From contig PLMF01000108.1 of NCBI GenBank assembly GCA_003142355.1, positions 436 through 16,848 of the forward strand: DNA of 16,413 nt, in the 5' to 3' direction. The position numbers and the translations under genes are program-made. Below the pieces are notes generated by a model. The model worked only from the letters and a program-made list of their open reading frames with translations. It had not been told where the DNA came from and made no database searches. The stretch comes from Bryobacterales bacterium (GTDB lineage: Bacteria > Acidobacteriota > Terriglobia > Bryobacterales > Bryobacteraceae). Shown here piece after piece: positions 7,828 to 11,053 of this stretch; the first letter of the stretch is position 1, and each line of letters opens with the position of its first letter.

Positions 7828-7886
7828 CCGCTCCCTAACGGTCGCGGCTCCGATGTGCTTTCAGAGCCGCGACCTTCAGGGAGCGG
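7828..7886. repeat. Palindromic repeat, copy A (23-bp arms, 13-nt loop)
   Basis: Left arm 7828-7850 begins CCGCTCCCTAACGG; the right arm is 7864-7886. The arms pair over 23 positions with two mismatches. The loop at 7851-7863 is CGATGTGCTTTCA. It is the reverse complement, in 12 of 13 positions, of the loop in copy B (11015-11027). The element fills the gap between the permease stop (7822-7824) and the convergent thiD stop (7889-7891), so it probably serves as a bidirectional 3' element. There is no T-tract, so a classical intrinsic terminator is not supported; an RNA-stabilising or REP-like hairpin fits better. In the RNA read in the thiD direction one of the two mismatches becomes a G-U pair. 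Confidence 0.9.
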
Positions 7887-7888
7887 AA

Positions 7889-8671
7889 TCATCGAACCGC
7901 CGCGTGGAAGTTGACAGGTCCGCAGCCGCGGCCCAGCCCGGGGTTGCTGCGGATCGCCTCGTGGATAAAACGCTTGGCGCGCTCCACGGCGGCGGGAAGG
8001 GTGAGGCCGCTGGCCAGGCCGGCGGTGATGGCGGCCGAATACGTGCAGCCGGTTCCATGGGTGTGGCGGGTGGCGAGGCGCGGGGCGGGAAACTCGCGCC
8101 ATTCGGCGCCATCGTAGAGGACGTCGGTGGCGCCTGAATCCAGGTGCCCGCCCTTGACCAGCACGGCGCGCGCGCCCATCTCGCAAATGCGCTCCGCGGC
8201 GCGGCGCATATCGTCGAGAGAGCGGATGGTCATGCCGGTGAGCGCTTCGGCCTCGGGCAGGTTGGGGGTGACGAGTATCGCGCGCGGCAACAGCTCCTCG
8301 CGAATGGCGGCGGCGGCCGTCTCCGGCAGCAGCGGCAGGCCGTGTTTGCTGACCATGACGGGGTCCACCACCAGGGGAAAGCGGAAGGCGGCGGCCGCGC
8401 GGGCGACGGCCCGCACCATTTCCGCCGACCCGAGCGCGCCGGTCTTAGCCGCGGCGGGCGGGATATCCTCGAGCACGGCCTCGATCTGTTCCAGCACCAG
8501 CGAGACCGGCATCACTTCCACGCGGGACACCCGCACGCTGTTCTGAACCGTCACCAGAGTCACCACGGCTTCGCCATAGACGCCGAACTGGTGAAACGTC
8601 TTGAGGTCGGCCTGAATGCCGGCGCCGCCGCTGGGGTCGGAACCGGCGATGGTAAGGGCGACAGGCGGCAT
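7889..8671 (-). CDS. thiD: Hydroxymethylpyrimidine / phosphomethylpyrimidine kinase (ThiD)
   Basis: 260 residues, normal for stand-alone ThiD. It phosphorylates HMP and then HMP-P to HMP-PP in the cytosol, the pyrimidine branch of thiamine synthesis and salvage. Visible motifs: the N-terminal LTIAGSDPSGGAGIQADLKT (6-25) that binds the pyrimidine; VVDPVMVSKHG (101-111); the TPNLPEAEALTG segment (135-146); VLVKGGH (170-176); and the anion hole with catalytic cysteine in HTHGTGCTYSAAI (203-215, Cys209). The ATG has a good Shine-Dalgarno (GGAG, reverse complement of 8677-8680) five bases upstream. A zinc-finger gene lies 32 bp upstream on the same strand and may share its transcript. No other thi genes are in the window, and no TPP riboswitch sequence was seen upstream, so control may not be thiamine-dependent. 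No ThiE or TenA fusion is present. Confidence 0.96.
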   Translation of the reverse strand: MPPVALTIAGSDPSGGAGIQADLKTFHQFGVYGEAVVTLVTVQNSVRVSRVEVMPVSLVLEQIEAVLEDIPPAAAKTGALGSAEMVRAVARAAAAFRFPLVVDPVMVSKHGLPLLPETAAAAIREELLPRAILVTPNLPEAEALTGMTIRSLDDMRRAAERICEMGARAVLVKGGHLDSGATDVLYDGAEWREFPAPRLATRHTHGTGCTYSAAITAGLASGLTLPAAVERAKRFIHEAIRSNPGLGRGCGPVNFHAAVR

Positions 8672-8703
8672 TCTGTCTCCAGTCTACGACGCTGGAACGC
8701 CGG

Positions 8704-8925
8704 TCAGGCCGCGTATCGGATGACCTTCAGTTCGGCGGATTCATCCACGGCGGCGAGGAACTGATCGACCCGTGACATTGTTACCTGTTCCAACTCCGTA
8801 TCACCGCACTGCCGGCATTGGAGTACCGGGAGCGATCTGAGGATCACGATCGAGGAATCACCGATTTTGAACGGTAGATCCGTGACACGCGACTCCAGCA
8901 GACCCCCGCAAATTCGGCATCTCAT
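8704..8925 (-). CDS. YgiT-type zinc-finger protein (orphan)
   Basis: 73 residues with CxxC pairs at C3/C6 and C37/C40, identical in position to the protein encoded at 14-238, and a related tail (ELKVIRYAA). This is the short YgiT/MqsA-N-like zinc-binding form without a DNA-binding helix-turn-helix. In typical loci such a gene follows a small toxin gene. Here the 129 bases between its start and the esterase's first possible start codon are too short for the usual ~80-residue toxin, and the next gene downstream is thiD, so it appears to be an orphan. The start at 8923-8925 has a strong ribosome site (AGGAGA on the minus strand, 8931-8936) six bases away. A TATAAT hexamer lies at 8962-8967 on the minus strand. 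Function is unknown; it may be a solitary antitoxin or a metal-binding accessory protein. Confidence 0.8.
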   Translation of the reverse strand: MRCRICGGLLESRVTDLPFKIGDSSIVILRSLPVLQCRQCGDTELEQVTMSRVDQFLAAVDESAELKVIRYAA

Positions 8926-8961
8926 CTGGTTCTCCTAAGACGCGACCCTTCGTCCCACTCG

Positions 8962-8967
8962 ATTATA
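8962..8967 (-). promoter_or_regulatory. Candidate -10 box for the zinc-finger/thiD transcript
   Basis: The minus strand reads TATAAT here, 37 bases upstream of the zinc-finger start codon, matching the sigma-70 -10 consensus exactly. No convincing TTGACA-like -35 sits 16-18 bases upstream (that stretch is GC-rich), so the call rests on the -10 and the location only. Confidence 0.4.
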
Positions 8968-9052: not shown

Positions 9053-9087
9053 GGTTGACACGGCGTACAATAAACCTGGTAAAACCC

Positions 9088-10302
9088 ATGAGGAGATATA
9101 TTCAAGTTACTGCGGCGGCATTGGCCGTAATGCTATCCGGCACGTTCGTTTCCGCCCAAAACCCAGCCGCGCCGGCGGCTCAGCCGGGCCGGGGCGGACG
9201 TGGTCCCCAAGCCCCTCAGTTCGTATCGCCCGAGGTGCAGGCAGACCGGCGGGTCGCATTTCGCATCTACGCGCCCCAAGCGCAGAATGTCAGCTTGACC
9301 GGCGGCGACATTCCCGGAAACATGCCGGGCGCGGCCTTGACAAAGGGTGAAAACGGCGTTTGGGAGGCGACGCTCGGCCCCATCGACCCAGGCGCCTATC
9401 GATATAACTTCAACGTGGACGGGGTCGCGGCGATCGATCCGCGCAATCCTTCGATCAGCCAATCCAATAACAACGTCTGGAGCCTGTTCTACGTTCCCGG
9501 CGCGGATTTCATGGACACCAAAGAAGTGCCCCATGGAGCCGTGGCGGCGGTGACTTATTACTCCACCGTACTGAAGAAATTCCGGCGCATGCACGTCTAC
9601 ACGCCACCGGGATATGAGATGGGCCAAGGCAAATTCCCGGTCTTTTATCTGCTGCATGGAGCGGGCGACTGCGACGAAGCGTGGACCTCGGTGGGCCGCG
9701 CCGGTTTCATCCTGGATAACCTGATCGCGGCCAGGAAGGCGAAACAGATGGTGGTGGTCATGCCCGCGGGGCACACCAGCCAGACGATGGGCGGCAGGGG
9801 TGCGGGCGGCGGTCGTGCTTCCGGAGCGCCAGATGAATTCGTACAGGAGTTCGTGACCGACATCATGCCGTACGCCGAGTCGCACTATCGCGTCTATACC
9901 GACCGTCCACGGCGCGCCATTGCGGGTCTTTCCATGGGCGGGGGCCAGACGCTCAACATTGCGATTCCGCATCTGGACAAGTTCGCGTACATAGGCGTCT
10001 ACAGCTCCGGAATCTTCGGCATTGTCCCGTCCGGGCGAGGACCGGCTCCGGAGGCGGTTCCGGGCCCGACCTGGGAGCAGCAGCACCTGGCCGAGCTCGA
10101 CAACGCCGCCGCCAGGAAAGGACTGAAGCTGCTCTGGTTCAGCACGGGCGTGGACGACGGCCTCATCACCACCACCCGGGCCACCGTAGACCTGCTGAAG
10201 AAGCATGATTTCGAGCCAGTGTACAAGGAGAGCCCCGGCGCGCACACGTGGATCAACTGGCGCAACTATCTGAACGAGTTCGCGCCACAATTGTTCCAAT
10301 AG
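9088..10302 (+). CDS. Secreted CE1-type (feruloyl/acetyl esterase-like) hydrolase with N-terminal E-set domain
   Basis: 404 residues from the ATG at 9088. A signal peptide is clear: MRR, a hydrophobic stretch, and cleavage after FVSA (about residue 23). A Pro/Gly/Arg-rich linker ([12 protein letters not shown], 33-44) follows. Next is a beta-sandwich of the CBM48/isoamylase-N type (about 46-135), with [34 protein letters not shown] and IDPRNP. The alpha/beta-hydrolase domain (about 155-404) is of the esterase D/CE1 type: [23 protein letters not shown], nucleophile Ser282 in GLSMGGG, a likely acid in FSTGVDDGL (Asp356 or Asp357) and His386 in [11 protein letters not shown]. Such enzymes remove ester groups from plant cell-wall xylans or similar polysaccharides outside the cytoplasm. 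An in-frame TTG at 9055 would add 11 residues ahead of the signal peptide and is less likely. A second Gly/Arg-rich loop ([13 protein letters not shown], 234-246) is unusual. The exact ester substrate cannot be told. Confidence 0.9.
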
Positions 10303-10323
10303 CGCCGTTGAGTGGGAAATGCC

Positions 10324-10980
10324 ATGAAACCCAAGGCTGCTTCCGACTCGATTGCCAGCCAACTCTCGCTGCCCGGGGCGGACGTTCAGGCAATCGCAAC
10401 GCGCGTTGTGGGGCTGCCGGAAGGAATCGATGCGCTCTTCGAGGGTCTCGGCTCCAAGACTGCCCGCGTGAAATACGGATCGGCCAAAGTCCTGCGCATG
10501 GTAAGCGAACAAGCGCCGGATCTGCTCTATCCTTGGTGGGATTCTTTCGTGCGCCTGCTCGAAAACGAGAGCGCCTTCCTGCGCTGGGACTCGACGCAAA
10601 TCCTCGGCAACCTCGCCGCGGTGGACCGCGAGGATAAGCTCGAGAGGGTGCTCGGCCGGTTCTTCGCTCCCATCTTGGGGCAAGAGATGATTGGCGCGGC
10701 CAACGCCATCGCGGCGGCTGCCAACATCGCCCTGGCAAAGCCGCACCTGGCGGATCGCATCGTGAAAGAGATCCTCAAGGTGGAACGGGCATCCTACCAG
10801 AGGCCGGAGTGTCGCAACGTGGCGATCGGCCACGCCATCAAGTCCTTCGACAGGTTCTTCCGCCACGTCAAGAACCGGCGGCCGGTGCTCGCGTTTGTCA
10901 AGCGGCAACTGGACAACCCGAGGCCGGCCACGCGCAAAAAGGCCGAGAAGTTTCCGAAACGCTGGGCCGCCCCGACGTAG
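10324..10980 (+). CDS. HEAT-repeat-like alpha-helical protein of unknown function
   Basis: 218 residues, no signal peptide and no membrane segment, so probably cytoplasmic. The sequence is a run of amphipathic helices in pairs, as in HEAT-type solenoids: for example ARVKYGSAKVLRMVSEQAP, then SAFLRWDSTQILGNLAAVD, then MIGAANAIAAAANIALAKP, then RNVAIGHAIKSFDRFF. Such scaffolds bind proteins or nucleic acids; no catalytic motif is visible. The C terminus is basic (NPRPATRKKAEKFPKRWA). It lies 21 bp after the esterase stop and is probably co-transcribed, but no functional link is evident. The ATG at 10324 has GGGA six bases upstream; an in-frame GTG at 10312 is the alternative start with no ribosome site. 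A long palindrome follows the stop. Confidence 0.75.
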   Translation: MKPKAASDSIASQLSLPGADVQAIATRVVGLPEGIDALFEGLGSKTARVKYGSAKVLRMVSEQAPDLLYPWWDSFVRLLENESAFLRWDSTQILGNLAAVDREDKLERVLGRFFAPILGQEMIGAANAIAAAANIALAKPHLADRIVKEILKVERASYQRPECRNVAIGHAIKSFDRFFRHVKNRRPVLAFVKRQLDNPRPATRKKAEKFPKRWAAPT

Positions 10981-10988
10981 TCTGGGGC

Positions 10989-11053
10989 CAACCGCTCTCT
11001 GACGTTCGCGGCTCTGAAAGCACATCCGAGCCGCGAACGTCAGAGAGCGGTTG
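10989..11053. repeat. Palindromic repeat, copy B (perfect 26-bp arms, 13-nt loop)
   Basis: Left arm 10989-11014 (begins CAACCGCTCTCTGACG) and right arm 11028-11053 are perfect reverse complements over 26 bases. The loop at 11015-11027 is TGAAAGCACATCC, matching the reverse complement of copy A's loop at 12 of 13 positions. Relative to copy A the stem carries two substitutions that are matched on both arms, so pairing is kept. It lies between the HEAT-like gene's stop (10978-10980) and the convergent NHL gene's stop (11070-11072), the same convergent setting as copy A. No T-tract follows on either strand. Confidence 0.95.

Follow-up and report, generated by a model that had tools for sequence, protein, structure and literature searches.

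A palindromic repeat of Bryobacterales, probably spread by a small single-strand-DNA transposase

The palindromes of the window and their setting

The stretch analysed here, referred to as the window, comprises 16,413 nucleotides of a Bryobacterales genome (assembly GCA_003142355.1, contig PLMF01000108.1, positions 436 to 16,848) and carries two palindromes that belong to a repeat probably spread by a small single-strand-DNA transposase. Element 1 takes up the intergenic space between two gene ends, that of a permease gene of MacB/FtsX type (5317-7824) and, on the minus strand, that of a phosphomethylpyrimidine-kinase gene (7889-8671); element 2 sits between gene ends at 10980 and 11070. Both are described below as dimers of repetitive extragenic palindromic (REP) units, whose arms are named after the letters at positions 7 and 14; REPIN stands for a REP doublet forming a hairpin.

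7828..7886, minus strand: element 1, foot-to-foot REP dimer (REPIN-like) with CG-type arms and a 13-nt spacer, 21 of 23 arm positions paired
7828..7850, plus strand: first arm (REP unit) of element 1, CCGCTCCCTAACGGTCGCGGCTC
7851..7863, minus strand: spacer of element 1, 13 nt, reading TGAAAGCACATCG on the minus strand, both ends being part of the two CnGA feet
7864..7886, minus strand: second arm of element 1, CCGCTCCCTGAAGGTCGCGGCTC
10989..11053, plus strand: element 2, foot-to-foot REP dimer with TT-type arms and a perfect 26-bp stem that includes CAA/TTG outer flanks
10992..11014, plus strand: first arm of element 2, CCGCTCTCTGACGTTCGCGGCTC
11015..11027, plus strand: spacer of element 2, 13 nt, TGAAAGCACATCC
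11028..11050, minus strand: second arm of element 2, identical to the first

The original prediction had been made from the letters of the window, and re-reading both sites confirms the positions it gave (7828-7886 and 10989-11053). Its stem of at least 23 bp holds for element 2, where 26 of 26 positions pair, and is slightly generous for element 1, since only 21 of 23 do. The likeness of the loops is as claimed, TGAAAGCACATCG and TGAAAGCACATCC agreeing at 12 of 13 positions in common orientation, and so is the difference between the elements, both arms having C and G at positions 7 and 14 in element 1 and T and T in element 2. A 27-nt inner pattern, allowing up to 3 mismatches, matched the window twice and none of 200 shuffles; folding of the loop strands gave z = -9.3 and -11.8, with 0 of 200 shuffles equally stable. 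On direct reading all four arms carry a CnGA foot. Rfam returned no match above the gathering threshold in the window.

A high-copy repeat in related genomes

A scan of contigs for CGGCTCTGAAAGCACATC returned 14 stretches, seven of them in three Bryobacterales/Solibacter metagenome-assembled genomes (MAGs); the other seven (Roseburia, Lachnospiraceae, Bacteroidales, Bacillota, Proteus, Ruminococcus and Nitrosospira) were taken as chance matches, about seven being expected by our own estimate for 18 letters. The relatives used hereafter are the draft genomes or MAGs fen_178 (G001), palsa_129 (G002) and GL140_4 (G003). Element 1 is 97% identical over 63 nt to a fen_178 copy (L141), and element 2 is 96% identical over 74 nt to another (L167).

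With up to 3 mismatches, the arm CCGCTCCCTGACGGTCGCGGCTC is found 91 times in fen_178, 298 times in palsa_129 and 123 times in GL140_4 (reversed control, 0), whereas the loop pattern, at the same tolerance, occurs 9, 8 and 1 times, respectively. Arms thus far outnumber loop-type sites, which identifies the 23-nt arm as the repeated unit and the palindromes as pairs of arms. As far as these relatives go, the counts also answer the worry, raised with the original prediction, that only two copies might exist. A side observation concerns genome G350, where the reversed control pattern gave 33 matches and the true pattern none; this genome may thus harbour a different repeat of high copy number and similar letters.

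The 58 fen_178 stretches, picked around arm matches, contain 87 of the 91 listed arms (those on C22, C68 and C183, 4 of 91, are omitted) and 93 arms by a looser pattern. These make up 31 dimers, all foot to foot, i.e. with the GCTC ends inside, and 31 single arms. Dimer spacers measure 0 nt (1 case), 6 (3), 7 (1), 13 (7), 15 (1), 17 (2), 18 (12), 24 (1) and 25 nt (3), mainly therefore 6, 13, 18 and 25 nt, and the 13-nt loop is one of several classes. The loop had been claimed to be fixed: the window's type does appear in 5 of the 7 fen_178 spacers of 13 nt, but the loop is more variable in palsa_129 and the other spacer classes exist beside it. The palsa_129 stretches (1.146 Mb) hold 15 foot-to-foot pairs, 11 of them with a 6-nt spacer, 6 pairs in the opposite arrangement and 56 single arms, with 3 for the control; as these stretches are the contigs with listed matches, their arm density is not a genome average. 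Some single arms form short tandem arrays in direct orientation, their steps being about 45, 75 and 111 nt (L174:11129-11241, L204:17043-17215 and L087:2097-2342).

Concerning gene context, 46 of 59 palsa_129 elements are intergenic, 10 intragenic and 3 at stretch edges, and the corresponding figures for 61 fen_178 elements are 48, 11 and 2. This count excludes L169 and L170 as well as single arms with over 2 mismatches; genes were called with a simple custom script, which makes the intragenic status uncertain near gene ends. The features by which REPINs are recognised, that is, inverted REPs at preferred distances, hairpin formation and extragenic position, are hence found here in the spacer classes, the folds and the intergenic majority in palsa_129.

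Arm hairpins, feet and covariation

Each 23-nt arm is a small hairpin by itself. Arms flanking transposase genes (see below), collected from many genomes with a CTNACG core as search key, end in CCGC/GCGG, GCCC/GGGC, ACCC/GGGT, ACAC/GTGT or GCGC/GCGC, and around the core position 7 varies together with position 14 as C-G, G-C or A-T. Among 41 distinct arms of this kind, 94.7% of stem cells are paired, against 71.1±2.0 in shuffled and at most 37% in slid alignments, and the covariation score is 0.534, against 0.138 and at most 0.092. Plain counts of double-change pairs and of pair types in these 41 arms were not above shuffles. The arms had been selected by their interior letters only, disregarding the stem; of the 83 core matches near transposase genes this criterion left 30 out of the alignment, 3 of which have at least 3 stem pairs. 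An exception is the T-T at positions 7 and 14, the type of element 2 in the window, which is unpaired within the arm.

The foot reads CnGA from 5' to 3'. Its C, at position -5 and hence outside the search pattern, is found in 151 of the 178 arms taken from fen_178 and palsa_129.

Association with class 3 transposase genes

Class 3 TnpA-Y1 proteins have been described mainly from Planctomycetes, Acidobacteria and Proteobacteria, with the motifs NHVH and YV[VI][AENY]EQ; their genes have atypical, CnGA-footed structures on their flanks, about 600 copies of which are reported in Solibacter usitatus, and the class 3 passages of that work term these transposases possible intermediates between insertion sequences (IS) and REP systems, calling for further work (Quentin et al. 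2018, PMC6006769). Matches to Y1_Tnp (PF01797) number 1 in fen_178, 16 in palsa_129 and 1 in GL140_4. The sole fen_178 open reading frame (ORF) of this kind encodes 164 amino acids (aa) and lies between inverted arms, one 18 bp ahead of it and the other 14 bp behind; two palsa_129 genes, which show 80% and 47% identity, are likewise placed between arms. Relatives of this protein were found in 29 of 297 genomes of the phylum.

Class 3 loci carry hairpin arms (at least 3 of 4 stem pairs, at most 350 bp from the gene) on both sides in 18 of 27 cases and on at least one side in 19, compared to 0 and 2 of 20 other Y1 loci; two control cores were each found on both sides of 1 of 27 class 3 loci. The 27 consist of 26 of 30 loci fetched from a longer list of places, plus L065, and the 20 include four weak relatives (L106-L109) as well as two loci with a flank shorter than 350 bp (L064 and L068). 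At 27 further loci of the family, arm matches flank the gene on both sides in 11 (one, L246, looks like chance) and on at least one side in 18. Twenty of the 27 class 3 proteins were aligned, the 7 omitted having stops or being fragments or clipped, and in these H87 and H89 (HuH), W126, Y147 and Q152 are invariant.

Presence of the protein also tends to go with that of the repeat. At least 10 arms were counted in 38 of 121 genomes of the family, and a protein match (E <= 1e-3) in 28 of these 38 versus 17 of the remaining 83 (Fisher p 3.7e-8), or 24 versus 13 at E <= 1e-15. In the phylum sample the protein is found in 6 of 7 genomes with at least 6 arms, a threshold chosen afterwards, versus 23 of 290. 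It should be noted that the arm pattern used in both surveys detects CGC-stem arms only, so that class 3 genomes with other stems are counted as arm-poor.

Interpretation and alternatives

The palindromes are, very probably, REPIN-like non-autonomous elements of the class 3 TnpA-Y1 system. This builds on the unit structure, the covariation, the copy number and the dimer arrangement observed, and on the like units that flank class 3 HUH/Y1 genes in relatives; it also bears out the earlier suggestion of an IS200-like nuclease and a REP/REPIN family, given a high-copy repeat, mostly intergenic and often in dimers, with arms on either side of an HUH/Y1 transposase gene in those genomes. Each element consists of two inverted 23-nt REP units placed foot to foot, with a short spacer between them, each unit forming a DNA hairpin with a 5' CnGA foot. 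The class 3 transposase would recognise foot and hairpin in single-stranded DNA, its tyrosine presumably cutting at or near the foot, and may copy, or once have copied, the dimer in trans into intergenic DNA. If so, the genome of the window should have, or have had, a class 3 gene, and the constant 13-nt spacer would be a mark of common descent within one REPIN subfamily, not of a function of its own.

Several observations weigh against this explanation. Many elements are single arms with no partner recognised, 31 out of 62 in the stretches from fen_178 and 56 out of 77 in those from palsa_129. Nine of the 27 class 3 loci, and 16 of the 27 in the family set, do not have arms on both sides, and of 53 arms at class 3 loci of the phylum as a whole, 31 have a CnGA foot and 12 a CnGT foot. 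No class 3 protein match was obtained in GL140_4, with its 123 arms, or in G008, with 22, nor in 10 of the 38 arm-rich family genomes, though many of these assemblies are drafts split into hundreds of contigs; the missing protein in GL140_4 and G008 could reflect gene loss, gaps in the drafts or a different mover. The Fisher test overstates independence, because genomes of one family share ancestry. Finally, the comparisons, which are between species, revealed no excision or insertion and no readable exact target site.

Arm-rich genomes without a class 3 match, such as GL140_4 and G008, are what one would expect if some other mobile-element family moved the repeats and the class 3 gene were a passenger. 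Set against this are the arms beside class 3 genes, which differ in their stems from locus to locus while retaining the pairing, and the lack of any other Y1 locus with arms on both sides (0 of 20, a comparison within Y1 loci); we regard such a mover as the most improbable of the readings considered.

A role at transcript ends has to be weighed as well, since in the window each copy stands between two converging genes, element 1 being 3 and 2 nt away from their ends (at 7824 and 7889) and element 2 8 and 16 nt (10980 and 11070), and the RNA folds of both are very stable. Bidirectional terminators or mRNA-end stabilisers, retained between convergent genes, would show these features. On direct reading, however, no T-run follows either stem, and in 1.125 Mb of palsa_129 the elements per intergenic gap amount to 0.086 for convergent, 0.093 for tandem and 0.075 for divergent gaps. 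The convergent setting of the window copies is therefore untypical, and pattern counts, moreover, span 0 to 318 across the 121 family genomes. The gene-end context that the original prediction wanted counted is thus mostly intergenic, without a preference for convergent gaps, which leaves a dedicated terminator role unsupported; absence of the T-run together with that of a convergent preference speaks against an intrinsic terminator, and the broader reading as terminators or stabilisers is very unlikely.

The paired changes of the two arms invite yet another explanation, in which selection on the long dimer hairpin, as folded RNA or DNA, would produce both these changes and a fixed loop without need of a transposase. 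Arms within a dimer do match: they are of the same type in 26 of 46 dimers (shuffled, 16.8±2.8) and wholly identical in 12 of 46 (2.1±1.4), and the variable position 10 agrees in 18 of 26 same-type dimers (8.7±2.3). Yet 11 of the 15 foot-to-foot dimers of palsa_129 join a CG-type to a GC-type arm, a combination that disrupts the long stem but leaves the hairpin of each arm intact, hence the long dimer stem is not what is kept; besides, the covariation is located within single arms and the loop varies in palsa_129. Matching arms are explained by the copying of whole homodimers, and arm subtypes are indeed often self-paired in fen_178. The paired changes at positions 7 and 14 are accordingly real, but they mostly represent two arm subtypes occurring as homodimers, the clear covariation being inside single arms. 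We give selection on a folded long hairpin, one of the causes suggested for them, little credence; copying of homodimers as units, with two arm subtypes involved, is enough to explain the pair of elements in the window. As a caution, paired changes between the arms of a palindrome should not be read as RNA covariation.

Relation to known repeat systems

The absence of a described function, as stated in the original prediction, is overtaken by the literature, since structures with a CnGA foot at class 3 TnpA-Y1 genes are already in print (PMC6006769). In its class 3 passages, that work agrees with the present family in the CnGA foot, the HuH and Y----Q motifs, a REPtron-like arrangement, the high copy number and the occurrence in Acidobacteria, whereas foot-to-foot dimers with spacer classes, arm covariation and internally deleted genes are features of the present family that those passages do not contain. 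Here, the class 3 features consist of the CnGA foot, arms flanking HuH/Y----Q genes (in relatives only) and a high copy number (in relatives). No other publication on class 3 repeats appeared among the literature matches listed, and a term search of PMC12306157 and PMC8266576 did not find "class 3". This kind of repeat is thus already described, the present family being a well-supported addition to it.

As portrayed by Bertels and Rainey (2011, PMC3116915), Pseudomonas REPINs and their REP-associated tyrosine transposases (RAYTs) share with the present family the inverted doublets at set distances, the hairpins, the extragenic location and the link to a Y1 transposase, and differ in arm sequence and transposase class. 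The foot of the Pseudomonas group is GTAG (PMC6006769/PMC3733652), versus CnGA here. Homo- and heterodimers, with conserved spacers in some dimer types, are likewise reported in the REP account of Di Nocera et al. (2013, PMC3733652), which also mentions acidobacterial transposases associated with terminal inverted repeats; these are similar, as described, in being Y1 transposases flanked by inverted repeats. The arms of fen_178 and palsa_129 lack the terminal GTAG or CGTC tag of the REPs treated there.

Two assignments were rejected. A GTAG REP, belonging to class 2 TnpA-REP, does not fit a CnGA foot, as opposed to GT[AG]G, nor scores of 26.6 and 29.8 bits with the NCBIfam REP transposase model, whose cut-off is 80. 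CGTC REPs have a terminal unpaired CGTC tag and no link to a transposase, while the present repeat has its CnGA foot and is transposase-associated; the letters CGTC arise inside the arm only if its variable letter is G.

Neighbouring genes of the window

The adjacent genes at 2830-5313 and 5317-7824 are 72-83% alike in the listed blocks and represent a tandem duplication, the second encoding MacB_PCD and FtsX domains. The gene at 11070-13853 (minus strand) contains DNA repeats at 168-nt steps, which we take, from our own reading, to be NHL-like. Positions 7925-16295 of the window are syntenic with palsa_129 contig C16 (L174:17180-19248 and L175:21-3214). On that contig the kinase and repeat-protein genes adjoin; in the window they are separated by an esterase gene and a 222-aa ORF, and a REP dimer is found near each border.

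Target sites and deletion derivatives

One comparison, the only clean case, is in keeping with spread of the repeat: an element is present in one and absent in the other of two species at an otherwise alignable intergenic site (L160 versus L180). For the exact target site, no junction was readable at L161, L137, L146, L154 and L159, nor at either window site compared with palsa_129; in the comparisons L130/L206 and L150/L188 the arm is in both members.

The class 3 genes of palsa_129 lie between arms whose outermost feet point outward. Foot-outward pairs in the same genome retain the left end TAGAATTGG of the gene-bearing element, and several of them its right end GGCAA as well. In L276 most of the gene is deleted, the last codons and both ends being kept: it reads ERVM SVFESHEL stop, where L065 has ...ERVMHDF... 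and ...MSVFESHEL stop, and the two share a 22-mer. L270, L273, L277 and L278 are short foot-outward pairs consisting of end sequences only (L270 and L277 coincide with the pairs at L172:2300 and L193:8095). Judged by these sequences, foot-outward pairs appear to be internally deleted copies of the transposase element, which supports a decay of an IS-like element into pairs resembling miniature inverted-repeat transposable elements (MITEs); from such pairs to foot-to-foot dimers we infer a further step.

The deleted transposase copies of palsa_129 hint at how such repeats originate. Tentatively, and with more doubt than confidence, class 3 might be seen as a living link: ends like those of an IS would decay to MITE-like pairs and these to REPINs, the series being laid out within palsa_129. 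The copy numbers, the covarying hairpin, the dimer spacer classes and the deletion derivatives make the idea of an intermediate between insertion sequences and REPs testable and, were the link true, the origin of REPINs from IS200-type elements would be directly traceable.

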